DNA from: a virus
DNA length: 33,701 bases
IMG/VR virus record: IMGVR_UViG_3300025168_000319
Location: 1-33,701 of that record
Direction: 5' to 3' (one strand)
Below, piece by piece: positions 4,130-30,880 of this stretch (position 1 is its first letter; every line of letters begins with the position of its first letter). The notes under the pieces were generated by a model. It was not told the DNA's origin and did not search any database. It saw only the letters and a program-made list of their open reading frames with translations. A program made the translations under genes and the position numbers.

Positions 4130-4222
4130 ATGTCCAGAGAAAATCAACCAAAAACCCCACTAGCCAGATATGAACCAAAAACCCCTCTAGGCAGATTTAT
4201 GTGGTTTATAAATGAGTCGTGA
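4130..4222 (+). CDS. 30-residue micro-ORF containing the paired repeat
   Basis: A short ORF with a good ribosome site (AAGGA at 4118-4122, seven bases before ATG 4130). It encodes MSRENQPKTPLARY followed by EPKTPLGRF and MWFINES, so the two 21-bp repeat copies at this locus, 27 bp apart, read in frame as a doubled peptide (Q/E)PKTPL(A/G)R(Y/F). Its TGA overlaps the start of the next gene at 4212 by 11 bases, so translation of the two could be coupled. That next gene has no ribosome site of its own, which supports coupling and a leader-peptide role. No known family recognised. The alternative is that only the DNA or RNA repeat matters and the ORF is incidental. Confidence 0.6.
   Translation: MSRENQPKTPLARYEPKTPLGRFMWFINES
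4144..4191 (+). repeat. Paired 21-bp element, locus A
   Basis: Two copies of the consensus TGAACCAAAAACCCCNNTAGG, at 4144-4164 (first G is C, last G is C) and 4171-4191, with a period of 27 bp. The second copy begins 41 bp before the start codon at 4212. The same paired element occurs at 10359, 18895 and 27616. Here it lies inside a translatable micro-ORF. Confidence 0.9.
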
Positions 4223-4844
4223 TCTAGCTACAGATATAATTGACGCGCTTGATGACGATGTTATTTATCCATTCTTTGCAATAGAATTATTATTTGATGG
4301 TGATAATACATTAAGACTTTGGACAGGTCTTGGGACTCTTACTCATAACAGTCAAGAATGGGTGGGGACTGGAACTTTACTTAACATTAGTACAGTTGAA
4401 GAAGCATCTGAAATTGCAGTAAAAGGTGCTACAGTTACATTAAGTGGAATACCTTCATCTGTTATTTCACTAGCACTATCTCAGCCGTATCAAGGCAGAG
4501 TGTGTAATCTCTATTTCGGTATGTTTACAGTAAATAGATTACTTCAACAAAGTAGTGATTTTATTTTGTTACAAAATGGATCAAAAGTTTTACTTGAAAC
4601 AGACCAAACATCTATATCTAATATATTTTCAGGCTATATGGATCAGATGAACATATTAGAAACGCCATCAACATCAACAATAGAGTTAGTGGTTGAGAAT
4701 AGATTAATAGATTTACAACGAGCAAGAATAGCTCGCTTTACATCAGAATATCAGAAATCACTTTACCCAACAGATTTAGGGTTGGATTTCGTAGAAGATT
4801 TGCAAGACAAGGATATTTCATGGGGGAGGAGTAGTGGCTCTTGA
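4212..4844 (+). CDS. Tail/baseplate protein upstream of the tail-tip gene
   Basis: A 210-residue protein beginning MSRDLATDIIDALDDDVIYP. The pattern FFAIELLFD, LRLWTGLGTLTHNSQEWVGTG and ISTVEEASEIAVKGATVTLSGIPSS is shared by a widespread phage tail protein family located just before the J-like gene; I cannot tie it to a Pfam entry with certainty (a DUF2163-type relation is possible). The likely role is part of the tail-tip hub. It has no clear ribosome site and its start is inside the end of the preceding micro-ORF, suggesting translational coupling. Its 3' end overlaps the next gene by 11 bases. Confidence 0.7.
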   Translation: MSRDLATDIIDALDDDVIYPFFAIELLFDGDNTLRLWTGLGTLTHNSQEWVGTGTLLNISTVEEASEIAVKGATVTLSGIPSSVISLALSQPYQGRVCNLYFGMFTVNRLLQQSSDFILLQNGSKVLLETDQTSISNIFSGYMDQMNILETPSTSTIELVVENRLIDLQRARIARFTSEYQKSLYPTDLGLDFVEDLQDKDISWGRSSGS

Positions 4845-9543: not shown

Positions 9544-10357
9544 AGTAATAAACTCTAGCACTAATAATGCGGCTAAAAATGGTTATATTTGGCAGATGTT
9601 AAATCTATTTCCTAGTCAAACAGGTTTAGAAATTAAAGGTGTGTTTCATCAATATACACTAAATAAAGATGAAAGCACTAATGGATCTGTAATCATTAAA
9701 AACAAGAACGCAAATGGCACAGGTAACATTTATAAGAATGTTGATAGCTGGGATGGCATTGCTGGATCAACTAAAATTGGGTATGACCCTGTAACGCCAT
9801 CCTTGTTGCCATTATGGGGAGATGGATCAATAAGTGTTACTGGAAATGGTACTTTAAGCGATGTATCAGTAAATTATCATTACTCATTTGACCCTTGTTT
9901 TATTCCTCTGTCCGACCCTAGTTGCCCAGACTTTCAAGCAAATTTGTATAAATATTTGTTAGATAATAATCTTCTTAATTCTGAGCCTGACATAAATGAT
10001 CCATATTATGATGAATGGTTAAAATTTGAGCTAGAGCGTAAAGCTGAAAAACAAGAAGAGCTTAAACTAAAAAAAGCTAAAGAAGAGGAGGAAAAAAAAG
10101 AGGTTACAATGGAAAAGGTTCTTGCAATCTCAGGTGCAGTAGAGAAAATAGCTGACCCAGCGGAGCAACTAAATATGCTTACAGAAATGGCGGCTGTAGG
10201 GAAAATAAACTCTTATTACGATGTAAAGATTGATGGTGGTATATATAAAGACACAATCCAATTAAATGACAGTAATATTCAAGATAATCGCAAGGCATTG
10301 AGAAATTTACGGAATGATGCTAATCATAGAAAGATAGTTAGGTCTCAATACAAATAA
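9467..10357 (+). CDS. Secreted protein with charged coiled coil, unknown function
   Basis: A 296-residue protein. The start at 9467 (or 9473) is chosen because it creates a classic signal peptide, MIKILQKVSLALAVCLCPYSSLSE; longer in-frame starts would bury it. The first 77 bases overlap the previous gene in another frame. The mature part includes YIWQMLNLFPSQTGLEIKG, GYDPVTPSLLPLWGDGSISV, VNYHYSFDPCFIPLSDPSCP, then a Lys/Glu-rich coiled coil (about residues 175-205) and a C-terminus ending ALRNLRNDANHRKIVRSQYK. I recall relatives in marine phages, uncharacterised. It may be an exported or virion-linked protein. Confidence 0.75.
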   Translation: MKMIKILQKVSLALAVCLCPYSSLSEVINSSTNNAAKNGYIWQMLNLFPSQTGLEIKGVFHQYTLNKDESTNGSVIIKNKNANGTGNIYKNVDSWDGIAGSTKIGYDPVTPSLLPLWGDGSISVTGNGTLSDVSVNYHYSFDPCFIPLSDPSCPDFQANLYKYLLDNNLLNSEPDINDPYYDEWLKFELERKAEKQEELKLKKAKEEEEKKEVTMEKVLAISGAVEKIADPAEQLNMLTEMAAVGKINSYYDVKIDGGIYKDTIQLNDSNIQDNRKALRNLRNDANHRKIVRSQYK

Positions 10358-10358
10358 A

Positions 10359-10406
10359 TGAACCAAAAACCCCACTAGGGAATAATGAACCAAAAACCCC
10401 ACTAGG
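10359..10406 (+). repeat. Paired 21-bp element, locus B
   Basis: Two identical copies of TGAACCAAAAACCCCACTAGG at 10359-10379 and 10386-10406, a period of 27 bp, lying in the 67-bp gap between two exported-protein genes. The second copy begins 39 bp before the start codon at 10425, with the ribosome site AAGAAGGAAA in between. ATG precedes each copy, giving two six-codon ORFs (MNQKPH). The EPKTPLG frame has no start codon here. Confidence 0.92.
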
Positions 10407-10424
10407 CTATAAGAAGGAAATATT

Positions 10425-13505: not shown

Positions 13506-14014
13506 ACAAGAATTATGATAGATGTTTAACAATGTTATTGAAACATGAAGGTGGATATGTTAACGACCCAAACGATGCTGGGGGACGCACTAATCTTGGT
13601 GTTACACAAAAGGTTTATGAAAATTGGGTTGAGCGTGATGTAACAGAGCAAGAAATGCGCGATTTAACTGTAGAAGATGTTGCTCCAATATATAAAAATA
13701 ACTATTGGGACAGAGGAAAGTGTGATGATTTACCTAGTGGTGTAGATTGGTGCATATTTGACTGGGGCGTTAATAGTGGAATGAGTAGATCAGCTAAAGC
13801 ATTACAGCGTATTGTAGGTGTTGAAGCCGATGGTGGAATTGGCCCGATGACTCTACAAGCTGTGAATGACTTTGATCCATTGGAAATTATAACTAAAATG
13901 CATTTATCTCGACAACATTTCTATGAAAGTCTGGATAATTTTGTTAATTTTGGTAGAGGCTGGACAAGACGAAATAACGAGACAAAAGAAACTGCATTAG
14001 AAATGCTTGATTAA
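13502..14014 (+). CDS. Endolysin, GH108 muramidase
   Basis: A 170-residue protein with the GH108 signature HEGGYVNDPNDAGGRTNLGV; Glu16 is the expected catalytic acid. The C-terminal half (ALQRIVGVEADGGIGPMTLQ) is the associated peptidoglycan-binding type 3 region. The enzyme cuts the MurNAc-GlcNAc bond of peptidoglycan to lyse the cell. No signal peptide is seen, in line with release through the upstream holin. Its end overlaps the convergent minus-strand gene by four bases, so no space is left for a long terminator. Confidence 0.93.
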   Translation: MNKNYDRCLTMLLKHEGGYVNDPNDAGGRTNLGVTQKVYENWVERDVTEQEMRDLTVEDVAPIYKNNYWDRGKCDDLPSGVDWCIFDWGVNSGMSRSAKALQRIVGVEADGGIGPMTLQAVNDFDPLEIITKMHLSRQHFYESLDNFVNFGRGWTRRNNETKETALEMLD

Positions 14015-14370
14015 ACAAAGTATTCCCAATATCCACCACTTGATTTTTGTTTGTTTATTATTCCTTCTTCAGTCATTTTGTTTAAGTAAACTTGAGTTAA
14101 ATATTTTGGTTTATTAATTAACTCACTTATTTCACCAGAAGATATCGGTTGAGAGTTTAAACCCATTAAATACTTAAATAGTTCTTTTCTTAATTGGTTT
14201 GGTATTCTTCCAACTGGCGATGCTGGAAAACGGCATTTAACTTCTGGTTTTTCTTTCCCATTCATATATGCTCTTAAATAATCTTGGAATTTACCATCGA
14301 AGGTTTGTGAAACATTATGAGTTTCAAATGCGTGTTTAATAGTAAATAAAACTTGATCTATTTTATTCAT
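14011..14370 (-). CDS. Winged-helix DNA-binding protein
   Basis: A 119-residue protein. ATG 14370 is chosen because AGGAG lies eight bases upstream; a longer frame to 14418 lacks a ribosome site. The C-terminal ~50 residues (ISSGEISELINKPKYLTQVY, then LNKMTEEGIINKQ, then a Gly-Gly-Tyr-Trp wing) form a winged helix-turn-helix. It is the last gene of the minus-strand early operon. Likely a transcriptional regulator; its target is unknown. Confidence 0.65.
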   Translation of the reverse strand: MNKIDQVLFTIKHAFETHNVSQTFDGKFQDYLRAYMNGKEKPEVKCRFPASPVGRIPNQLRKELFKYLMGLNSQPISSGEISELINKPKYLTQVYLNKMTEEGIINKQKSSGGYWEYFV

Positions 14371-14433
14371 TAAACTGCTCCTATTATATAAAAAGCAACA
14401 GGAATAATAAAAATACAAACTGCTCCAATAAAA

Positions 14434-14595
14434 TCATTTATCATCTAATCCATCTCCCTTTAAAACATATAACTGATCTTCAAGTACAACAATTGTTGTA
14501 TCTATATGATCAGAATTATTTTCAGTTATCCTTTTTTTTAATAGCTCTATCTCTTCAGTAAGAAACTTTATTCTCATTGGTTTAGATAAATTCAT
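14434..14595 (-). CDS. Small early protein, unknown
   Basis: A 53-residue protein. ATG 14595 is preferred because GGAGAACAAA precedes it, the same leader type as other genes in this operon; ATG 14607, overlapping the upstream TAA as TAATG, is the alternative (57 residues). The content is helical and charged (KFLTEEIELLKKRITENN). No family recognised. Confidence 0.5.
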   Translation of the reverse strand: MNLSKPMRIKFLTEEIELLKKRITENNSDHIDTTIVVLEDQLYVLKGDGLDDK

Positions 14596-14606
14596 TTTGT
14601 TCTCCA

Positions 14607-14831
14607 TTATGTAGGCACTATTTGAAGGGGAACGTGTAAGCCAGTCCCATGACATTCATAACAATCTTCAGAAACATTATCAAACTTCATTAAACCTTTT
14701 CCCTTACATAATTTACAATGACGATCATCAACCCAAATTAATGTAGTTATTTTTTCTTGTTGCTCTAACAATTTATCTATTTTGGATTTTAACTCTGGTA
14801 CGATGTTCCAAACTTTATCTTTATTGTTCAT
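14607..14831 (-). CDS. Small zinc-finger protein (DnaJ-type CxxCxGxG pair)
   Basis: A 74-residue protein with ribosome site ACGGAG. The C-terminal half has CKLCKGKGL and CYECHGTGL, two CxxCxGxG motifs that form one zinc-binding unit like half of the DnaJ cysteine-rich domain. The N-terminal half is helical. Such short proteins are common in phage early regions; the partner is unknown. Its start overlaps the upstream stop as TAATG. Confidence 0.7.
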   Translation of the reverse strand: MNNKDKVWNIVPELKSKIDKLLEQQEKITTLIWVDDRHCKLCKGKGLMKFDNVSEDCYECHGTGLHVPLQIVPT

Positions 14832-15007
14832 TAAACAAACTCCGTCATAGGATGATCTAGCAATTTTGATATTTTTCGCTGTATCCTAATTTTTTCAGCT
14901 TTGTTTGAATTAGCAGGATCTTGAACATTATCTTTCATCCAAATGCTGTCAAGTGCGTCACTAATAAACATAAGCTCAACATCGTTAAATCTTATTTCTT
15001 TAGTCAT
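14831..15007 (-). CDS. Small early protein, 58 residues
   Basis: ATG 15007 follows the ribosome site AGGAAG and overlaps the upstream stop as TAATG; its own TAA overlaps the next ATG in the same way. It encodes MTKEIRFNDVELMFISDALD, then SIWMKDNVQDPANSNKAEKI and a helical C-terminus with HPMTEFV. No known family. The tight TAATG chaining with both neighbours supports it as a real gene. Confidence 0.6.
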   Translation of the reverse strand: MTKEIRFNDVELMFISDALDSIWMKDNVQDPANSNKAEKIRIQRKISKLLDHPMTEFV

Positions 15008-15153
15008 TATATTTCTTCCTTTCCTGTTTTAATATTTGTAGTATCAATTTTAATGTGCAAATGTCCTGTCTGCATCGACGATATATTTAATTCATAAGGA
15101 CACGTTCGAAGCCATACTAATATGTCCTCTATGTTATCTATTTGTTTTGTCAT
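15007..15153 (-). CDS. Small early protein, 48 residues
   Basis: ATG 15153 follows ACAGGGAG at a good distance. It encodes MTKQIDNIEDILVWLRTCPY and then ELNISSMQTGHLHIKIDTTN, a helix followed by beta strands. The stop overlaps the next start (TAATG). No family recognised; operon position and leader support it. Confidence 0.55.
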   Translation of the reverse strand: MTKQIDNIEDILVWLRTCPYELNISSMQTGHLHIKIDTTNIKTGKEEI

Positions 15154-15519
15154 TTATTTATCTCCCTGTTGTTGTTTTAATATACGTTTAATGAGTGTGT
15201 GAGCATCTTTGTTACGCCCTCTCAATAACATATCATATGCCCAAGCTAAATTACTCCTATCGTTCCTATCTAACTCTCCCTCAATAGTCGTATCTGCTAT
15301 GTTTGTAGCAATAGGTTCTGGGGTTGTTGTGACTTTAAATTTTACAGCCAATTGATTAACCTCATTTTTCAACCCTTTAATTAACTCTTGAGCTTCAAGA
15401 TGTGTGTATTCGTATTGACCTTTTCGGGATAGGTTGCCCAATAGCTTAATTGACTTGTGGGTTTTAGGTAGACGGCTATCAAGCAACCGCCTGAATGTTT
15501 CTCTCTTAGTGTTGTCCAT
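15154..15519 (-). CDS. Early protein of unknown function
   Basis: A 121-residue protein with leader AAAGGGAGAAATATA before ATG 15519. It is mostly helical and basic at the N-terminus (KRETFRRLLDSRLPKTHKSI), with a Thr/Pro-rich hinge and a C-terminal helical part (NLAWAYDMLLRGRNKDAHTL, then IKRILKQQQGDK). No domain recognised. It is placed midway in the small-protein operon. Confidence 0.62.
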   Translation of the reverse strand: MDNTKRETFRRLLDSRLPKTHKSIKLLGNLSRKGQYEYTHLEAQELIKGLKNEVNQLAVKFKVTTTPEPIATNIADTTIEGELDRNDRSNLAWAYDMLLRGRNKDAHTLIKRILKQQQGDK

Positions 15520-15548
15520 TATATTTCTCCCTTTATAATTTGATATAG

Positions 15549-15902
15549 TTAATATGGATATTCGTCATTAAAACAAAATTCATCAGTAGATAACACGGGG
15601 TCTAGATATTCTTCAGAGTCTTTCTCAGCTCTATAATTAACTCCCCATGCTTCCAAAAGTTTACTTAGCCTTGCGCAAATCATATTCTCATTTAAAGTAA
15701 GTTGATTAATTATTTCTCCATAACGATCTTGGTTTGAAAGAATCCTAGCCTCTAAATCTTGAGAATTAAAACTGTTAAGATTTTTTCTATTAATATCGTA
15801 ATCTAATTTTTCAAACGCCTCTAAAGTTTCCATTAAATGTTGGAAGTCTGGGCGGTTTTGTGGCGAGGTATCATTAGTATTTGTGTAAACTGGTGTTTTC
15901 AT
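15549..15902 (-). CDS. Early protein of unknown function
   Basis: A 117-residue, acidic, helical protein (EALEAFEKLDY-like helices after PDFQHLMETL, and LSKLLEAWGVNYRAEKDSEE). The leader AAGGGAGAAATAAA precedes ATG 15902, almost identical to those of the two neighbouring genes. No family recognised. Confidence 0.62.
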   Translation of the reverse strand: MKTPVYTNTNDTSPQNRPDFQHLMETLEAFEKLDYDINRKNLNSFNSQDLEARILSNQDRYGEIINQLTLNENMICARLSKLLEAWGVNYRAEKDSEEYLDPVLSTDEFCFNDEYPY

Positions 15903-15914
15903 TTTATTTCTCCC

Positions 15915-16091
15915 TTATCTTGGTAATGTTATAGTAAATGGCGTATTTTCTATTTCAACTATTTGACTTAACGCGGTGCTTGTTACTTTAGCGTAATAAG
16001 TTGTGTTAGGGTCTAGGTATATGTCACCGTCAGTTGCTTTGTTTAATAGTTCTTTATTTTTGTCTGATACTTTAACTCGTCTATATGTCAT
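15915..16091 (-). CDS. Small early protein, 58 residues
   Basis: ATG 16091 follows ACAGGGAGAAATAAA. The peptide starts MTYRRVKVSDKNKELLNKAT and continues with DGDIYLDPNTTYYAKV and PFTITLPR, a beta-rich small protein. It is the first gene of the operon, about 40 bases from the palindromic promoter at 16131-16144. No family recognised. Confidence 0.6.
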   Translation of the reverse strand: MTYRRVKVSDKNKELLNKATDGDIYLDPNTTYYAKVTSTALSQIVEIENTPFTITLPR

Positions 16092-16130
16092 TTTATTTCT
16101 CCCTGTTATTATAAATTAATATAACCCTAT

Positions 16131-16144
16131 TACATTATAATGTA
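16131..16144. promoter_or_regulatory. Palindromic divergent promoter/operator
   Basis: TACATTATAATGTA is a perfect 14-bp palindrome in the 90-bp gap between divergent genes (15915-16091 minus, 16182-16601 plus). It contains the -10 hexamer TATAAT on both strands (16136-16141 plus, 16134-16139 minus), so one site could serve both directions. The half-site TACATT is shared with the inverted repeat at 18449-18478, suggesting the same regulator binds both. No good -35 is seen for the plus direction. Confidence 0.6.
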
Positions 16145-16181
16145 GTTTGTAAAGAGGTAAAAACAGTTTATTGTAATAAAA

Positions 16182-16601
16182 ATGGAGTTATTTTTTAATA
16201 TAGATGGTAAGCCGATAGGTAAAAGCAGACCTAGATTTACAAAGTTTGGTCGAGCATATACTCCAAAGCAAACAAAAGATTATGAGCTATATATTAAAAC
16301 AATAGCTCAAATGGCTATGAAACGTGCCAATTTGACAATTACTGATAATAAAGTCAGGGTTAGTTTACATATGTTTTACCCAATACCGCTATCATGGTCT
16401 AAGAGGGCAAAACAGGACGCTGTAGAGGGTAAAGTGACACCAAAGGTAAACGACATAGATAACGTGGCTAAAGCCGTTCTGGACGCATTAAATACGGTAG
16501 TTTATAAAGATGATAGACAGGTTTATTATCTCCAAGCTGAAAAGACATATGAAACCCCAGAAAATAAGCCAATGATAAAGGTTTATATTAGCTGGGAATA
16601 A
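16182..16601 (+). CDS. rusA: RusA-family Holliday junction resolvase
   Basis: A 139-residue protein of normal RusA length. The N-terminus has GKPIGKSRPRFT and the core has NDIDNVAKAVLDALN (D91, D93) with VVYKDDRQV, the acidic residues that bind magnesium. RusA cuts Holliday junctions and would resolve recombination or replication intermediates before packaging. It is the only plus-strand gene between two minus-strand blocks, and its end overlaps the convergent HNH gene by 19 bases. No strong ribosome site; AGAGG lies too far upstream (about 25 bases). Confidence 0.92.
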   Translation: MELFFNIDGKPIGKSRPRFTKFGRAYTPKQTKDYELYIKTIAQMAMKRANLTITDNKVRVSLHMFYPIPLSWSKRAKQDAVEGKVTPKVNDIDNVAKAVLDALNTVVYKDDRQVYYLQAEKTYETPENKPMIKVYISWE

Positions 16602-16909
16602 CTTGTGTCTAATCCGTATTCTTCTTCCCATCGTTTAGGTTCTCGATGAATAGCAATTTTAGATGTATCAAAGTTACCTTGATGATGACCTTCGCATAAT
16701 GGTATTGCTTGGCAATCATCACGTTTTCTAAAGCTGTATCTATCGTGAATTGGATGGTGAGCTTGCGTCCTTGAGACTTGATGTAAGCCATAGGTTTTAC
16801 ATATAACACATTCTAACCCTCTAACATAATTCAACCACTTAATATTCTTAGTTGGTTTACCTATCTTTTGGGATACTTTTTGACCTGTTAAATTACTCAA
16901 GTGGATCAA
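16583..16909 (-). CDS. HNH-type nuclease, Ref/DUF968-like
   Basis: A ~108-residue protein with TTG starts at 16909 or 16900 (AGGA lies just upstream; 16900 gives better spacing). It contains WLNYVRGLECVICKTYG, a Cys pair, then AHHPIHDRYSFRKRDDCQAI and PLCEGHHQGNFD: the pattern of small HNH nucleases related to the phage P1 Ref (recombination enhancement) protein. It overlaps the upstream gene and is in the recombination operon with SSB and Erf, which suits a role in recombination. Confidence 0.78.
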   Translation of the reverse strand: MIHLSNLTGQKVSQKIGKPTKNIKWLNYVRGLECVICKTYGLHQVSRTQAHHPIHDRYSFRKRDDCQAIPLCEGHHQGNFDTSKIAIHREPKRWEEEYGLDTSYSQLI

Positions 16910-17294
16910 ATCCTATTGTTTCGGATAATTTTGCCATAGTTGTTTCAAAATAGCTATTAAATTCTTGCTGACTCATTGAAGAAAATGATGTTGAGTCTGC
17001 AATATAAATAACTCCACCAGTAAATTTACTTATGGCAGTTTCGTAATATCCACAGGCCATTTTCAAATCCCTGTGTAAATGCTCAACTGAGGGCCATTTG
17101 CCAGTGGCTTTAACTACTTTGGATAATGTAATCCAATATAAACGGTGATGGGGGTTTGAGCGTTCGGAAATTGGGGTCATATTAAACTGTTGACCATCTT
17201 TAAATTCACTAAACTTTTCAGCATCATATGCTGATATTGGTCGTAGCTGACCGCCTTTTAGATAGACGGTCAACTGAACTTTTACTTTACTCAA
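16893..17294 (-). CDS. DUF1367-like recombination-region protein
   Basis: A 133-residue protein overlapping the SSB gene by four bases. The features NPHHRLYWITLSKVVKATGK and STSFSSMSQQEFNSYFETTM resemble the pattern of DUF1367 phage proteins (an (F/P)HHR motif near the start and a S(I/F)xFxxMxxxEF motif near the end). NinB was considered but fits less well. Function unknown; it sits between SSB and an HNH nuclease in a recombination operon, so DNA processing is a fair inference. Confidence 0.62.
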   Translation of the reverse strand: MSKVKVQLTVYLKGGQLRPISAYDAEKFSEFKDGQQFNMTPISERSNPHHRLYWITLSKVVKATGKWPSVEHLHRDLKMACGYYETAISKFTGGVIYIADSTSFSSMSQQEFNSYFETTMAKLSETIGFDPLE

Positions 17295-17644
17295 AAAGGT
17301 ATCTCATCGTCAATATCATTTATAGCTGGAGTTTGTTTTTGTGCTGTGTTTGAGAAATCACCGCCACCAACTAAATCTATTGATCTAGCTGTAATACCTA
17401 AATAAGTTTTTTCGTTATATTCGCGTTGAGTTAAATCACCAGAAAGACCAACTTTTTGCCCCTTTTTTAAGTAAGGTAAAATGCTATCTTTTCCCCAGTA
17501 ACTAATATCAAAATAAATAACAGACTTATTTTCTCCCCAGCCAGTATTTACAGCTATAGAAAAATTAAGCACTTTAGCACCTGATTGAGTAGTTCTTTGT
17601 TCAGCATCCTTTGTTAGATTGCCGATGGTTGATATGTTTAACAT
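17291..17644 (-). CDS. ssb: Single-stranded DNA-binding protein
   Basis: A 117-residue protein with an OB-fold typical of SSB (MLNISTIGNLTKDAEQRTTQ, FDISYWGKDSILPYLKKGQK, VGLSGDLTQREY) and an acidic C-terminal tail ending in DIDDEIPF, the tip that binds partner proteins. It would protect ssDNA during replication and Erf-mediated annealing. The start overlaps the end of the erf gene by one base, so the two are probably made together. Confidence 0.93.
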   Translation of the reverse strand: MLNISTIGNLTKDAEQRTTQSGAKVLNFSIAVNTGWGENKSVIYFDISYWGKDSILPYLKKGQKVGLSGDLTQREYNEKTYLGITARSIDLVGGGDFSNTAQKQTPAINDIDDEIPF

Positions 17645-18189
17645 TATTTTATCCTCATATTTAATATTGCGTTTAATTCAGTTCCCCATTTAGGATTAAC
17701 ATCATTTAATTCGTTTATAGTATTTTTAATACTATCAATGTTATTCTTTAGTTGCTCTTTTGAGCTATTTTCTAATTTGTTTTTGTATTTAAAATACTTC
17801 TCAACATCTGGATCAAACTGATTAGCATCGTCATCGTTTTGATCATAGCTGGTAATTCCTAACAATTGCATTAAACCAGTTCGCCTAGCATATGTGTTTG
17901 CCGCACCAATGCCTTGCATATTTACCTTCGATCCAAGTTCTAAATATTGTCGACTTGGGATTGCTTCACCTGTACTATGAACTAACATAGTTTCACAAAA
18001 ATGACCAAACTCATCTTTTCCTGATTTTGTAATAATACAGAAACCATTTGTATGAATTGTAGTAGTAACTAAGTTTAATAATTGTTGTAATGAAATGTAT
18101 TTAGATTTCCATGCAGGATTATTACTGTCGTTAATTGCTTTAGGTAATTCAGATTGCAGTTTTAATAGGCTTTCATAAATTTTAGTCAT
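17644..18189 (-). CDS. erf: Erf-family ssDNA annealing recombinase
   Basis: A 181-residue protein. ATG 18189 is chosen because AAGGATG precedes it; longer frames run into the upstream gene. The motifs LLKLQSELPKAINDSNNPAW, YISLQQLL, VHSTGEAI and NMQGIGAANTYARRTGLMQL with LGI and an acidic DDD follow the ERF family (phage P22 Erf). It anneals complementary ssDNA in phage recombination, with SSB and RusA as partners nearby. The C-terminal part is a less conserved helical tail. Confidence 0.88.
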   Translation of the reverse strand: MTKIYESLLKLQSELPKAINDSNNPAWKSKYISLQQLLNLVTTTIHTNGFCIITKSGKDEFGHFCETMLVHSTGEAIPSRQYLELGSKVNMQGIGAANTYARRTGLMQLLGITSYDQNDDDANQFDPDVEKYFKYKNKLENSSKEQLKNNIDSIKNTINELNDVNPKWGTELNAILNMRIK

Positions 18190-18415
18190 TTGTTTCATCC
18201 TTATACGGTGATGCATCATGCCCATGTTTTTTATGTGCAATAACAGTCTCATCTATAATTTCAGCAAATACTTTATAGAATTGACTATAAAAATATGCTT
18301 TTGATCCGTAATCTTTTGTTGGTTCTTTTGAGGTGTTTTGATGCATTGCATGAATTTTGTGCGATGCAAATAACTTTAGTTTTAATGGTGATGGCCATTT
18401 GTCTAAATTTGACAT
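18182..18415 (-). CDS. Small early protein, unknown
   Basis: A 77-residue protein with ribosome site ACAGGGAG before ATG 18415; its end overlaps the erf start by eight bases. It contains WPSPLKLKLFASHKIHAMHQ and YFYSQFYKVFAEIIDETVIA. No family recognised. It is the first gene of the leftward recombination operon that starts at the 18449-18478 control region. Confidence 0.58.
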   Translation of the reverse strand: MSNLDKWPSPLKLKLFASHKIHAMHQNTSKEPTKDYGSKAYFYSQFYKVFAEIIDETVIAHKKHGHDASPYKDETND

Positions 18416-18448
18416 TATATTAGCTCCCTGTTTTATTTATACATAAAC

Positions 18449-18478
18449 ACTTTACATTTAATCGTAACAATGTAAAGT
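18449..18478. promoter_or_regulatory. Operator: 10-bp-arm inverted repeat in the divergent control region
   Basis: ACTTTACATT (18449-18458) and AATGTAAAGT (18469-18478) are perfect inverted repeats around a 10-bp centre, located between divergent genes at 18415 (minus) and 18503 (plus). Each arm holds TTTACA, a possible -35 for either direction. The adjacent plus-strand gene encodes a Cro-like protein, the likely ligand. The half-site TTACATT is related to the palindrome at 16131-16144. Confidence 0.7.
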
Positions 18479-18502
18479 AAAATTATTAATAAGGAGAATA
18501 AA

Positions 18503-18685
18503 ATGGAAGATAAATTATTAAGTCTTAATCAGATTAAAGAGCGTTTAAAGGATCGTAAATTGAATACCATAGCAAAGAAACTTGATATTAATTATTTATC
18601 GGTTGCACAATTTGTTAAAGCAAATCCTAATCCAACTTATAAAATATTACTTTTAATTTCTAATTATTTGGAGGACAACAAATGA
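18503..18685 (+). CDS. Cro-like helix-turn-helix regulator
   Basis: A 60-residue protein with a strong ribosome site (AATAAGGAG). The whole length is a small HTH: LNQIKERLKDRKLNTIAKKL with recognition-helix region DINYLSVAQFVKANPNPTY and ILLLISNYLEDNK. Likely a Cro-type dimeric repressor acting at the inverted repeat just upstream and possibly at the 16131 palindrome. It overlaps the next gene by four bases (ATGA). No matching CI-type repressor was seen. Confidence 0.75.
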   Translation: MEDKLLSLNQIKERLKDRKLNTIAKKLDINYLSVAQFVKANPNPTYKILLLISNYLEDNK

Positions 18686-18894
18686 AACCAAATCAGAAGC
18701 AACTAATTATGGATCATTATTTTAATAAAGGTTTAACAATTAATCCAATTGAGGCAAACAAAAAACCAGTTAATAGCACTAGACTTGCCGCTAGAATTCA
18801 CGAATTGAAAGAGAGTGGTCATAATATTGGTAAAATTATGGTTGTATTGGACAATTGCACAACACCGATTGCTCAATATCATTTAATAAAATAA
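18682..18894 (+). CDS. HTH-domain protein (HTH_55-like)
   Basis: A 70-residue protein with ribosome site GGAGG. NQKQLIMDHYFNKGLTINPIEA, then STRLAARIHELKESGHNIGK, is the pattern of the small helix-turn-helix family often found beside phage replication genes. Likely DNA-binding, with an unknown target. Its TAA runs directly into repeat locus C (TAATG). Confidence 0.78.
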   Translation: MKPNQKQLIMDHYFNKGLTINPIEANKKPVNSTRLAARIHELKESGHNIGKIMVVLDNCTTPIAQYHLIK

Positions 18895-18942
18895 TGAACC
18901 AAAAACCCCTATAGGTAAAAGTGAACCAAAAACCCCTATAGG
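18895..18942 (+). repeat. Paired 21-bp element, locus C
   Basis: Two identical copies of TGAACCAAAAACCCCTATAGG at 18895-18915 and 18922-18942, a period of 27 bp, in the 67-bp gap before the replication initiator. The second copy begins 40 bp before the start codon at 18962. The inner CCTATAGG is a perfect palindrome. Each pair at loci B and C matches itself better than other loci, which suggests the two copies evolve together. Confidence 0.92.
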
Positions 18943-18961
18943 ATTAAAATAGGATTATATT

Positions 18962-19603
18962 ATGAGCCACAAAGCCACTAACTGGGCATTTCAACAGAAA
19001 GGATTATTGCCATCGCAAAAACTATTATTATTGCATTTGGCAGATAGACATAATCCAGACTTTGGATGTTTCCCCAGCATAAAGAAATTGACCATTGATT
19101 GTGAAATATCAAGAGGGTCAGTTATAAAACATTTATCAAATTTAGAGGAGAAAGGACTAATTAAAAAGGAAGAGCGCAAGCGTGATAATGGGTCACAAAC
19201 ATCTAATAACTATATATTGGGTTTTGAATTAGAGGGGGTACAATATTTAGACCCCACCCTATCAGAAGTTAGACCCCCCCAGTATAAAAAACCGTACTCC
19301 CATAACATGGTAACTAAACCAGTAAGTGATATAAGTATTGGTAAACCAAAAAAATCTAGTCAAATACCTATTAATTGGATACCTTCGGATAAAAATATAA
19401 GTGATGCTACAAGTTTAAATCTTTCTTTTACTCAATGTAATACTGAAGCAGAACAATTTAGAGATTATCACATTAGTAAAGGTTCATCATTTAAATGTTG
19501 GGATGCGGCTTGGAGAACATGGTTGAGGAATAGTAAGAAGTTTAGTAAAAATAAACCAAGTAACATAATGAATTTAATGAGCATGGCGGCAAGGGAGCAA
19601 TAA
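18962..19603 (+). CDS. Replication initiator with N-terminal HTH (lambda O-like role)
   Basis: A 213-residue protein with ribosome site TAGGA. The N-terminal ~90 residues are a winged HTH of the HTH_36 type: LPSQKLLLLHLADRHNPDFG, CFPSIKKLTIDCEISRGSVI and KHLSNLEEKGLIKKEE. A linker rich in Pro and Lys follows, then a C-terminal segment (FRDYHISKGSSFKCWDAAWR, TWLRNSKKF) common at the end of phage replication proteins. It should bind the phage origin and recruit the host helicase. C-rich direct repeats inside the gene (19247-19280) may be the origin, as in lambda O. Confidence 0.8.
   Translation: MSHKATNWAFQQKGLLPSQKLLLLHLADRHNPDFGCFPSIKKLTIDCEISRGSVIKHLSNLEEKGLIKKEERKRDNGSQTSNNYILGFELEGVQYLDPTLSEVRPPQYKKPYSHNMVTKPVSDISIGKPKKSSQIPINWIPSDKNISDATSLNLSFTQCNTEAEQFRDYHISKGSSFKCWDAAWRTWLRNSKKFSKNKPSNIMNLMSMAAREQ
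19234..19280. other. C-rich direct repeats in the initiator gene, possible origin
   Basis: TTAGACCCC occurs at 19247-19255 and again at 19269-19277, 22 bp apart, and the second copy extends to seven Cs. GGGGT at 19235-19239 and ACCCC at 19251-19255 can form an inverted repeat. These G/C tracts stand out in an A+T-rich gene and lie between its DNA-binding and C-terminal parts, as iterons do in lambda O. Only two copies, so the call is weak. Confidence 0.3.
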
Positions 19604-19604
19604 A

Positions 19605-20024
19605 ATGTATGAGTTATTAACGCAAAAGTTAGACCCTCAACAAATAGAAAAGCATCGTATGTGGATAGCATTAAAAGCAGAGGCATTATTAAATAATTAT
19701 TTTGTTGCTCCTGTTAGAGATGAAATCAAATATGAAATGATGTTAGGTTGGATGAAGACATTAGAGAATTATAGTAAGAATGAGATTGAGGCGGCTTGTT
19801 GGGAACATTTAATTGAAGAGCCAAGGCGAAAGCCACATGAGGGAATAATAAGAGAGAGAGTAATTAATGCTCGTAGACGTTATATGAAAACAAACACTCT
19901 TAAACATTTAGTTGAGTTAGATAAGGATGTTAAAGAGCCTGTCGAAAATAGTGTTGATATGGAAGAGCGCAGAAAAACAGCGGCTAAGATTATGCAAGAA
20001 GTCTTTGGGTCTAAAAAGATATGA
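19605..20024 (+). CDS. Possible helicase loader or replication accessory
   Basis: A 139-residue helical protein following the initiator by one base. The layout RDEIKYEMMLGWMKTLENYS, then NEIEAACWEHLIEEPRRKPH with EGIIRERVINARRRY, recalls phage helicase-loader proteins (W...L...y...E...A......P....I), but the resemblance is weak. Position directly after the initiator supports a replication role. It overlaps the next gene by four bases. Confidence 0.5.
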   Translation: MYELLTQKLDPQQIEKHRMWIALKAEALLNNYFVAPVRDEIKYEMMLGWMKTLENYSKNEIEAACWEHLIEEPRRKPHEGIIRERVINARRRYMKTNTLKHLVELDKDVKEPVENSVDMEERRKTAAKIMQEVFGSKKI

Positions 20025-20296
20025 AGGACAAAGATATAGTTTTAGCAAAGGAAATATTAAACTCAGCAAGTAAATTAGTAAGTAATGATCGCCGCAAGGA
20101 ATATGGCGACCCAAAAATAAACTTTCAGCGAACTGCTGATATGATTTCTGCTTACAAAGGGATAGAATTTACTTCAGAGGATGTTTGTATGTTTATGGTG
20201 TTTGTAAAGCTGGGAAGAGAAGCACATAAAACAAAAATGGATAATAAACGAGATGCGGCTGGATATTTAGCATTAGCGCATGAAGTAAGTTTGTGA
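20021..20296 (+). CDS. DUF6378-like protein
   Basis: A 91-residue protein in an ATGA overlap with the previous gene. The motifs LVSNDRRKEYGDPKINFQRT, EDVCMFMVFVKLGREAHK and NKRDAAGYLALAHEV match a small family frequent in phages and phage-like regions (DUF6378). Function unknown. It closes the replication operon before a 95-bp gap with a strong hairpin. Confidence 0.75.
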   Translation: MKDKDIVLAKEILNSASKLVSNDRRKEYGDPKINFQRTADMISAYKGIEFTSEDVCMFMVFVKLGREAHKTKMDNKRDAAGYLALAHEVSL

Positions 20297-20333
20297 TACA
20301 GGGGAAAAGAGAGCATTAAAAAATAGCTTTCCT

Positions 20334-20371
20334 GACCAACGGCTTCTGTCCTCCCTTGAAAGTCGTTGGTC
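20334..20371 (+). promoter_or_regulatory. Leader hairpin with anti-ribosome-site loop
   Basis: GACCAACGGCTT (20334-20345) pairs with AAGTCGTTGGTC (20360-20371) over 12 bp with one G-U pair. The 14-base loop CTGTCCTCCCTTGA holds CTCCCT, the exact complement of AGGGAG (20380-20385), the ribosome site of the next gene (ATG 20392). No U-run follows, so it is not a simple terminator. It could mask the ribosome site, or act in trans on the similar ACAGGGAG leaders of the early minus-strand genes. Confidence 0.6.
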
Positions 20372-20391
20372 GGTTATACAGGGAGAAGAAA

Positions 20392-21570
20392 ATGAATAAA
20401 TGGCCTAGTGATAAAATTGAACGTAAATTAACAGATAAATTAATACCATATGCAAGAAATAGTCGGACTCATAGTAAAGAACAAATTGGGCAAATAGCGG
20501 CAAGCATTAAAGAATGGGGTTTTACTACACCAATATTAGTTGATGAAGATAATGAAATAATAGCAGGGCATGGTCGTTTATTAGCGGCTCAAAAGCTAGA
20601 CATAAAAGAAGTCCCTGTAATGGTTGCTGAAGGATGGACGGAAGCACAAAAGAAAGCATACGTTATTGCTGACAATAAATTAGCGTTAAATGCTGGCTGG
20701 GATAATGAAATGTTAAAGGTGGAGATAGATAATCTAAAAGAGTTAGATTTTGATATAAATTTGACTGGTTTTAATTTAGATGAATTGTCAGAGTTATTTC
20801 CCGATGATAAGGTCATAGGTTTAACTGATGAAGACGTTGTTCCTGAAGCACCAATTAATCCTGTAACAATTGAGGGTGATGTTTGGTTACTTAATAATCA
20901 CAGATTAATGTGTGGTGATAGTACAAACATTGATGCGGTTGATAAACTAATGAATGGGCTAAAACCAAATGCAATTTTTACTGATCCACCTTATGGTATC
21001 GGGCTAGACAAAGAAAATCAAAAACTAGGAAAATCTCAATCTTATGACGCGGTTTTAAATGACCATAATTCGGAGGTTGCTAAAGATGTTTTTAACTTAG
21101 CTCTTGGCATGAATATTCCTGAGATATATTTTTGGGGAGCTAATCACTATTCATCGGTGCTACCTGATAGCTCTTGTTGGATAGTGTGGGATAAACAGGG
21201 CGGTAAAAATGTTACTTATGCAGATTGTGAATTGTGTTACACAAATATAAAAAAGCCTGTAAGAATGTTTACGCATATTTGGGACGGTTTTCGCAAAGAT
21301 AGTGAAAAAAGCGAAAAGCGAGTACACCCTACGCAAAAACCCATTAAATTATTTGAGGATATATGGTCTAAATTTAACACAGGTCAAGTTATTTTAGATT
21401 TATTTGGTGGATCAGGCTCAACCTTAATGGCTTGCGAAAAAACAGATAGGCATTGTTTAATGATGGAGCTTTCACCTAAATACTGTGACGTAATCATTAA
21501 ACGTTGGGAAGAATTTACAGGTAAACAAGCAATTCACGCAGAAACAGGAGTTAAATTTAATAATGGCTAA
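20392..21570 (+). CDS. ParB-like domain fused to DNA (N6/N4) methyltransferase
   Basis: A 392-residue protein; ATG 20392 follows ACAGGGAG, and a longer TTG frame at 20356 overlaps the hairpin and lacks a ribosome site. Residues ~1-90 are a ParB/sulfiredoxin-type domain (NSRTHSKEQIGQIAASIKEW, then EIIAGHGRLLAA). The rest is a beta-class amino-methyltransferase: DPPYG at about residue 198 (catalytic motif IV), and DLFGGSGSTLMACEK at about 338 (SAM-binding motif I), with HPTQKPI before it. It would methylate adenine or cytosine in a site not known here, possibly protecting phage DNA from host restriction. Confidence 0.92.
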   Translation: MNKWPSDKIERKLTDKLIPYARNSRTHSKEQIGQIAASIKEWGFTTPILVDEDNEIIAGHGRLLAAQKLDIKEVPVMVAEGWTEAQKKAYVIADNKLALNAGWDNEMLKVEIDNLKELDFDINLTGFNLDELSELFPDDKVIGLTDEDVVPEAPINPVTIEGDVWLLNNHRLMCGDSTNIDAVDKLMNGLKPNAIFTDPPYGIGLDKENQKLGKSQSYDAVLNDHNSEVAKDVFNLALGMNIPEIYFWGANHYSSVLPDSSCWIVWDKQGGKNVTYADCELCYTNIKKPVRMFTHIWDGFRKDSEKSEKRVHPTQKPIKLFEDIWSKFNTGQVILDLFGGSGSTLMACEKTDRHCLMMELSPKYCDVIIKRWEEFTGKQAIHAETGVKFNNG

Positions 21571-21585
21571 TAAAAGGAATATCTA

Positions 21586-21975
21586 ATGGAAGCTGAACGA
21601 CAAGGAATATCTGCGGCTGGTAGACCGCGAATAACTTTAGATGAGCAACAAATTAATGAAGTAGAAACTCTTGCGGCTGTCTTAACAACAGATCAAATTG
21701 CTGACTATTTTGGTATAAGTAGAAAGACTTTTTATAACATTATGGAACGTGATAAAGCTATTTTTACACGCTATAAAAAGGGAAAAGCAAAAGCAATAGG
21801 AAGTATTGCTGGTGGTTTGTTAAATAAGGCAAGAAACGGAGACCTTGGAGCGCAAGTGTTCTTTCTTAAAACTCAAGGTGGTTGGAAAGATACTACTGCT
21901 GTAGAACATACCTCACCAGATGGATCAATGACACCTACAAAGATAGAGCGAATAATTGTCGACCCTACAGATTAA
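21586..21975 (+). CDS. terS: Terminase small subunit
   Basis: A 129-residue protein with ribosome site AAAGGAA. An N-terminal helix-turn-helix (LTTDQIADYFGISRKTFYNI), then YKKGKAKAIGSIAGGLLNKA, a helix used for oligomer formation, and VFFLKTQGGWKD. It should recognise phage DNA and hand it to the large subunit, whose start (21956) lies inside its 3' end. Confidence 0.82.
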   Translation: MEAERQGISAAGRPRITLDEQQINEVETLAAVLTTDQIADYFGISRKTFYNIMERDKAIFTRYKKGKAKAIGSIAGGLLNKARNGDLGAQVFFLKTQGGWKDTTAVEHTSPDGSMTPTKIERIIVDPTD

Positions 21976-27551: not shown

Positions 27552-27561
27552 TTAAGATTAT

Positions 27562-27590
27562 AGTGAGAGGCTGTGATGGCCTCTCATTAA
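27562..27590 (+). terminator. Rho-independent terminator after the coat gene
   Basis: TGAGAGGC (27564-27571) pairs with GCCTCTCA (27579-27586) around a 7-base loop, extended by A/G-T/T pairs, and is followed by TTAATTTAATAATAA. This is a good intrinsic terminator, though the U-tract is interrupted. It would cut the highly expressed coat transcript and implies that the next genes need their own promoter. Confidence 0.75.
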
Positions 27591-27614
27591 TTTAATAATA
27601 AATATAGGAAATAA

Positions 27615-27668
27615 ATGAACCAAAAACCCCACTACAGAAGTGAACCAAAAACCCCTCTAGGCAAATAA
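27615..27668 (+). CDS. 17-residue micro-ORF over repeat locus D
   Basis: ATG 27615 follows AGGA (27606-27609) by five bases and encodes MNQKPHYRSEPKTPLGK, then TAA. Because the two repeat copies here are 25 rather than 27 bp apart, the first copy is read as NQKPHY and the second as EPKTPLG. The micro-ORF at 4130-4222 has the same EPKTPLG core. It may be a real micropeptide or an incidental frame over a DNA/RNA element. Confidence 0.45.
   Translation: MNQKPHYRSEPKTPLGK
27616..27661 (+). repeat. Paired 21-bp element, locus D
   Basis: Copies at 27616-27636 (TGAACCAAAAACCCCACTACA, degenerate end) and 27641-27661 (TGAACCAAAAACCCCTCTAGG), a period of 25 bp. The second begins 40 bp before the start codon at 27681. 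It lies just after the coat terminator, which makes a promoter or similar start signal plausible here. Confidence 0.9.
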
Positions 27669-27680
27669 ATAGGATAAAAC

Positions 27681-30323: not shown

Positions 30324-30337
30324 TAATAAAAACAGAA

Positions 30338-30382
30338 TAACAGGTGGCCTGTTAGGGGGTGGGGTTAGGTTGCTCCACCTCC
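30338..30382 (+). promoter_or_regulatory. Two adjacent hairpins before the tail-chaperone gene
   Basis: TAACAGG (30338-30344) pairs with CCTGTTA (30348-30354) over 7 bp, directly followed by GGGGGTGGGG (30355-30364) pairing with CTCCACCTCC (30373-30382) over 10 bp with two G-U pairs. No U-run follows. They end nine bases before the ribosome site GAGAGGA of the next gene. They could partly stop transcription after the abundant tube protein, stabilise its mRNA end, or limit chaperone translation. Confidence 0.6.
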
Positions 30383-30403: not shown

Positions 30404-30880
30404 ATGCTAAACTTATCTAAACCACGAATGTCAGATATGACATTTAAACGCGAACTACCAAACCATTTGAGCTATTTATCTAAAGGTAAAACATTTATAT
30501 CAATTCGATGCAGAGCTGGAGGTTATATTAATACAGAATGGCAAAAGTTAAACGATGAAATTGATACTCAAAGACAAGTTAAAACAATGGAAGTGAGTGA
30601 CCATTTTAAAGACAAGAAGAAGTATGCTCAAGAAATGTCTAACATGAGTAAAGAATTAGGTGAGATGAGATTACATTCTTTATATGATGCTTGCATAATT
30701 AGCTGGGAGACTAATATTTTAAATAATGGGAAACCAATGCAATGTAACAGAGAAAATTTTATGGAGTTAGCTCAAATCAGGATTGAAGAGTTAGTTAATT
30801 ATTTTATAGATTTTAGTAAATATGTTGAAGAGATTGGCAACTTTATTAATAAAGCAGATGAGGTAACGGAAAAAAACTAA
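30404..30880 (+). CDS. Tail assembly chaperone G
   Basis: A 158-residue protein. ATG 30404 follows GAGAGGA; an in-frame upstream start is inside the hairpins. It begins MLNLSKPRMSDMTFKRELPN and has helical segments (LHSLYDACIISWETNILN, IRIEELVNYFIDFSKYVEEI). Its position between tail tube and tape measure and the slippery site A-AAA-AAC (30871-30877) at its last codons identify it as the lambda-G-type chaperone that coats the tape measure during tail assembly. Confidence 0.85.
   Translation: MLNLSKPRMSDMTFKRELPNHLSYLSKGKTFISIRCRAGGYINTEWQKLNDEIDTQRQVKTMEVSDHFKDKKKYAQEMSNMSKELGEMRLHSLYDACIISWETNILNNGKPMQCNRENFMELAQIRIEELVNYFIDFSKYVEEIGNFINKADEVTEKN
30871..30877 (+). other. Programmed -1 frameshift site
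   Basis: AAAAAAC in the zero frame reads A AAA AAC, followed at once by TAA TAG: a canonical X-XXY-YYZ heptamer. A slip of -1 continues into the open frame that runs to 31179 and gives a G-T fusion of about 258 residues. The second frame has no usable start with a ribosome site (only TTG 30892). The lambda G/GT system works this way. Confidence 0.9.

Follow-up and report, generated by a model that had tools for sequence, protein, structure and literature searches.

RNAIII of Staphylococcus aureus is described as pairing C-rich loops at the tips of its stems with the unpaired Shine-Dalgarno sequences of several messages (PMC2837412), and the c4 antisense RNA of phages P1 and P7 as blocking the ribosome-binding site of the ant gene, with pairing sequences that likely lie in loops (PMC12197685). 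The RegB protein of phage T4 is reported to be a nuclease that cuts the sequence GGAG in the ribosome sites of early messages (PMC3014915). The locus analysed here belongs to a window of 33,701 nucleotides (the whole stretch of DNA under study, positions 1 to 33,701 of IMG/VR virus record IMGVR_UViG_3300025168_000319) and resembles each of these systems in one respect: as in RNAIII, a C-rich hairpin loop is predicted to be exposed; as in c4, the loop sequence, CUCCCU, is complementary to a ribosome-binding site, AGGGAG; and as in the RegB system as reported, early genes have a ribosome-site motif in common, by which they could be shut off as a class. RNAIII in its published description is a separate transcript with several C-rich loops that form longer duplexes, whereas the phage element has one loop with six to eight possible pairs and is known from sequence alone. 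The described target of c4 is ant; the phage element, located where an early operon ends on its 3′ side, could act on several targets. In the RegB system the sites are read by a protein with nuclease activity, whereas the proposed reader of the phage sites is an RNA loop. An Rfam scan of the window (E up to 5) returned four weak matches, none of them at 20300-20400, and a narrow search of the open-licence literature found no title or abstract start that describes the element.

The original prediction placed a 12-bp stem (20334-20345 with 20360-20371) and a 14-base loop containing CTCCCT in front of a methyltransferase gene, and took CTCCCT for the complement of the ribosome site of that gene. 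This hairpin is confirmed: the stem consists of 11 Watson-Crick pairs and one G-U pair, the loop (20346-20359) has the predicted size and content, and its CTCCCT (20351-20356) matches, as an exact complement, the AGGGAG at 20380-20385 that serves the ATG at 20392 as ribosome site. With two further outer pairs, C20332-G20373 and T20333-G20372, the stem reaches 14 bp, two of them G-U, and a small stem (GAGAGC with GCTTTC) that had escaped mention is present on its 5′ side. The parts of the element and the adjoining genes are the following.

20021-20296, plus strand: DUF6378 gene
20309-20331, plus strand: small stem-loop abutting the main hairpin on its 5′ side, GAGAGC (20309-20314) with GCTTTC (20326-20331), A-rich loop
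20332-20345, plus strand: 5′ arm of the main stem, whose 14 bp count U-G as pair 2 and G-U as pair 11
20346-20359, plus strand: apical part, with a 3-bp apical helix, bulged A20359 and the heptaloop UCCUCCC (20349-20355)
20350-20356, plus strand: invariant CCTCCCT, of which the CTCCCT part (20351-20356) complements AGGGAG
20360-20373, plus strand: 3′ arm of the main stem
20380-20385, plus strand: AGGGAG, which in the window is the ribosome site of the methyltransferase gene
20392-21570, plus strand: ParB_N plus N6_N4_Mtase gene, a swappable cargo (in gene-less relatives the DNA match stops at 20390 or 20374 and starts again at 21568 or 21637)

The hairpin folds with -22.2 kcal/mol (z -2.42; 5 of 200 shuffles equally good) and ranks second in stability among the 46-nt folds of the window, both strands scanned; the longer fold of 20290-20430 is ordinary (z -1.09, 32 of 200 shuffles as good). 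In the window CCTCCCT has a predicted unpaired probability of at least 0.92, and across the window and four folded relatives the loop is predicted to be mostly unpaired, with its last one or two bases paired in two of the three hairpin versions described below (B and C). The C-rich heptaloop, UCCUCCC or ACCUCCC, is exposed in the predicted structures, and the apical helix (20346-20348 with 20356-20358), interrupted by a U-U mismatch in the window, is complete in the folds of relatives. The strongest fold of the window is located at 30337-30382, just before a gene start near 30404 with the site GAGAGGA; it consists of two hairpins that abut each other, the second of which is GC-rich and carries CTCCACCTCC in the 3′ arm, and is kept in relatives G004 and G005 and replaced in G009.

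A search with the DUF6378 protein led to ten related viral records. The element is present in 10 of 10, and in 10 of 10 it directly follows the DUF6378 stop codon on the 3′ side. Three versions of the hairpin can be distinguished: version A in the window, G004 and G005; version B in G006; and version C in G001, G002, G003, G007, G008, G009 and G010. Most of the nearby matching DNA of the version C records is about 77-84% identical to the window. The stem arms of versions A and C differ at 9 of 28 positions, yet 13 of the 14 pairs stand. The original prediction had proposed to check in related phages whether the stem covaries and whether the CTCCCT loop is conserved, and within this clade both are the case: three base pairs have changed on both sides (the 3-bp apical helix included), a covariation score that was reached by 20 of 500 shuffled controls, and CCTCCCT is identical in all three versions. 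Both the stem and the loop bases that adjoin CCUCCCU vary around this constant sequence; a drifting stem with a fixed loop is the pattern expected of a functional hairpin loop. Versions A, B and C keep 14, 14 and 13 of the 14 pairs as plus-strand RNA and 12, 11 and 10 as minus-strand RNA, indicating that the plus-strand RNA is the likely actor. When the A-to-C substitutions were simulated, at least 13 pairs were retained in 5.5% of trials, and the corresponding figure for Watson-Crick pairs only was 5.6%, so the simulation by itself does not prove an RNA over a DNA function. Because there are only three versions and the simulation gives only 5.5%, the comparison of sequences lends moderate to good, not overwhelming, support to conservation of a functional hairpin. 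In the small 5′ stem the pairs are invariant in four distinct aligned sequences, and the whole first stem-loop, including its A-rich loop, is invariant except for one indel.

Searches by sequence pattern found no further record with the element beyond the ten. Of 21 pattern matches, six were known records, and among the other 15, which were folded, the element was found only in L214, which is the known record G008; three more pattern matches (L379, L380 and L381) do not fold into the element. When a model of the hairpin was run on 82 sources, the matches among 80 listed loci (L126, L133, L149 and L159) were all in records already known, and weak matches of 16-17 bits were located upstream in L221, L223, L224 and L214. 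The model did not match a distant DUF6378 relative with 34% identity (L392) or six more distant terminase relatives (L367, L373, L374, L376, L377 and L378). Pattern matches in genome contigs (at least 116 stretches, mostly of GC-rich genomes by title) were treated as chance. Among phages, the 20 best terminase matches reach no more than 47% identity and are spread over many genera, so they point to no particular host.

The complement of the loop is not confined to the methyltransferase gene. The original prediction had noted ACAGGGAG before the minus-strand starts at 15153, 16091 and 18415, where it is indeed found; AGGGAG also precedes the starts at 15519, 15902 and 19605, which with 20392 makes seven gene starts in total. 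The six sites other than that of the methyltransferase gene are the following.

15162-15167, minus strand: AGGGAG site of the gene at 15153
15527-15532, minus strand: AGGGAG site of the gene at 15519
15910-15915, minus strand: AGGGAG site of the gene at 15902
16099-16104, minus strand: AGGGAG site of the gene at 16091
18424-18429, minus strand: AGGGAG site of the gene at 18415
19592-19597, plus strand: AGGGAG (in CAAGGGAG) site of the gene at 19605, conserved in the majority of records from both lineages

Among the ribosome-site hexamers of the window, AGGGAG is the most frequent; it precedes 7 of 19 early genes versus 0 of 33 others (Fisher p 3.8e-4), in a list of 52 genes that was chosen by hand from the orfs and may hold false genes, and with genes at 14011-20392 counted as early and the rest as other, by position and not by expression. 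By an automatic gene list, AGGGAG precedes 5 of the 54 orfs of the window. AGGGAG sites with a gene behind them are likewise confined to the early region in relatives G004 and G009. Elsewhere, in 77 viral loci, AGGGAG precedes 4 of 656 orfs; this frequency is a rough background, because these loci come from other hosts and many have few classical ribosome sites. While the loop complements AGGGAG exactly, it is one base off the ribosome's own anti-Shine-Dalgarno sequence in the 16S tail. For 7 of 7 AGGGAG genes, the calculated duplex with the loop is stronger than that with the 16S tail; the single strongest loop duplex is formed with a non-early gene, at 4834, which has GGGGGAGG.

Comparison of orthologs shows that the members of this clade-specific class change. 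The gene at 19605 has AGGGAG in both lineages and AGGGAC in G006; the gene at 18415 has AGGGAG in the lineage of the window and AAGGAG in the other; the gene at 18962 has AGGGAG only in the other lineage, not in that of the window; the AGGGAG at 15153 is kept only in the nearest relatives; and the gene at 16091 has no counterpart in the relatives compared. Such turnover of targets may be possible for a class label, but it is not the clean co-conservation of a fixed regulon.

Two other features of the window were observed. A tandem unit of 25-27 nt (core AACCAAAAACCCC) occurs as four pairs (4137-4203, 10352-10418, 18888-18954 and 27609-27671), of which each stops a few bases short of a gene start (4212, 10425, 18962 and 27681, respectively); there are eight units in the window and in G004, two in G009 and none in G001, G002, G003, G007 or G008, and they look like shared operators or leader elements. 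The stretch 15509-15916, which holds an early gene of 117 aa, is 98.8% identical to G009 in surroundings that are about 77% identical, and is probably a recent transfer between phages.

The early replication operon consists of the replication initiator, a gene of 139 aa and DUF6378. Read on the plus strand, the element would belong to the 3′ untranslated region of this operon, bordering the packaging genes, and our tentative first choice is a conserved boundary hairpin whose free anti-Shine-Dalgarno loop would pair with the ribosome sites of the early class. The hairpin would mark or protect an RNA 3′ end or a processing point, and its exposed C-rich loop would pair with the AGGGAG sites of early messages, including that of the methyltransferase gene where present. 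Most of this pairing would be intermolecular, and early translation would be lowered once the early operon has been transcribed through. Action of the loop in trans, which the original prediction had also proposed, is plausible but unproven, and the hairpin may help to turn the early genes down. Promoter prediction listed no promoter-like site just upstream of the hairpin, so a small RNA would need processing.

A plain 3′-end hairpin that ends the early transcript, protects it or is its cleavage point (as a target of a double-strand RNase or a stop for a 3′ exonuclease), with the match to AGGGAG as a by-product, is nearly as likely, a possibility that we would not call probable. The hairpin lies right where the early genes end and packaging genes or cargo begin, as would be expected of a boundary hairpin, and a second 3′ hairpin in the window shows that such structures recur in the clade: a 12-bp stem without a U-tract at 27561-27589, immediately downstream of the gene for the major head protein (phrog_283). 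Two of its pairs show compensatory changes between lineages, its loop varies, and its score is reached by 55 of 500 shuffles. It is mainly the recurrence of conserved 3′ hairpins without a U-tract that brings the plain boundary function close behind pairing by the loop, and since the hairpin at 27561-27589 has no conserved loop, such 3′ hairpins do not necessarily work by way of a loop. The plain boundary function leaves unexplained why CCUCCCU alone is kept in the loop. Nor could the boundary be a standard intrinsic terminator, a candidate that was rejected: a strong hairpin placed immediately behind the final gene of an operon is terminator-like, but on the plus strand the stem is followed by TTATACAGGGAG, TTATAAGGGAG or TAAAAAAC and not by a U-tract, the loop is invariant, and the element is absent from the list of the terminator scan.

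It is unlikely, but worth weighing, that the two stem-loops and the C-rich loop are read by a phage or host protein in antitermination or translational control. The bulged stem with its heptaloop and the two abutting stem-loops, the first of them invariant apart from one indel, would suit such a site; the put RNA of phage HK022 also has two stem-loops. The position of the element at the end of the early operon and not at its start argues against a protein site, for which no candidate protein can be named.

Control in cis, in which the hairpin would hide or free the AGGGAG site of the methyltransferase gene, is improbable. The hairpin adjoins that gene in the window and in four relatives, and a short fold pairs CUUUCC with GGGAG, but this pairing arises from a fold that lacks the upstream GAGAGC; in longer folds GCUUUCC is held by GAGAGC. 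A pseudoknot between the loop and the site has to span a stem of 14-17 bp, for which the linker offers 6 nt in the window and 5 nt in version C, and is unlikely to form without opening of the lower stem. The assignment of the hairpin to the methyltransferase gene in the original prediction did not hold, as 6 of the 10 hairpin records are without that gene, and its interpretation as a whole is partly supported. G001, G002, G003 and G008 resemble the window in having the methyltransferase gene after the hairpin and AGGGAG as its ribosome site. In G004, G005 and G006 the gene is missing and AGGGAG is kept with no start codon nearby, while G007, G009 and G010 have neither the gene nor AGGGAG, and their sequence diverges right after the stem. 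Conversely, a CTCCCT hairpin with a stem of at least 9 pairs was found at 3 of 80 homologous methyltransferase loci (L012-L014, all of the same clade) and not at the other 77, a count that includes three loci with little or no upstream DNA (L007, L015 and L035). A methyltransferase-specific leader was rejected on these two counts. Because presence of the hairpin and presence of the gene are uncoupled both ways, the element is to be assigned to the end of the early operon, next to which the methyltransferase gene is inserted as cargo. The loss of AGGGAG from G007, G009 and G010 may be recent, because their hairpin does not differ from the one in the other version C records; these three cases therefore do not establish that the loop is conserved without AGGGAG over long times. 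The cargo slot itself (20374-21637, between the hairpin and the small terminase gene) is occupied by the methyltransferase gene in the window and in four relatives and is empty in G004-G006 and G009, and L367 has other DNA before its terminase genes.

Most improbable of all is a DNA-level site that is palindromic by chance (a packaging start, or a replication or recombination site): the element does lie just before the terminase genes and exactly at the border of cargo exchange, and Watson-Crick pairs alone number 12 of 14 in version A and 10 of 14 in version C with equally unlikely retention (5.6%), but G-U is kept as a pair on the plus strand only (14/14/13 versus 12/11/10) and the compensatory changes are typical of RNA.

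A boundary hairpin with a loop that pairs with early ribosome sites, the reading that we tentatively prefer, could be part of a larger scheme, which we consider unlikely as a whole: an early ribosome-site variant private to the phage and a complementary invariant loop would together constitute a class-specific shut-off of early translation based on RNA, the RNA counterpart of RegB of T4. Even as a mere boundary hairpin, the element is a conserved phage RNA element for which the scan found no Rfam family. If the loop does read the AGGGAG class, the phage would label its early genes by a slightly off-consensus ribosome site that serves as their address, and an RNA of its own would switch off the early class while sparing most host messages; the element would then be a short, directly testable example of a phage RNA that times gene expression.
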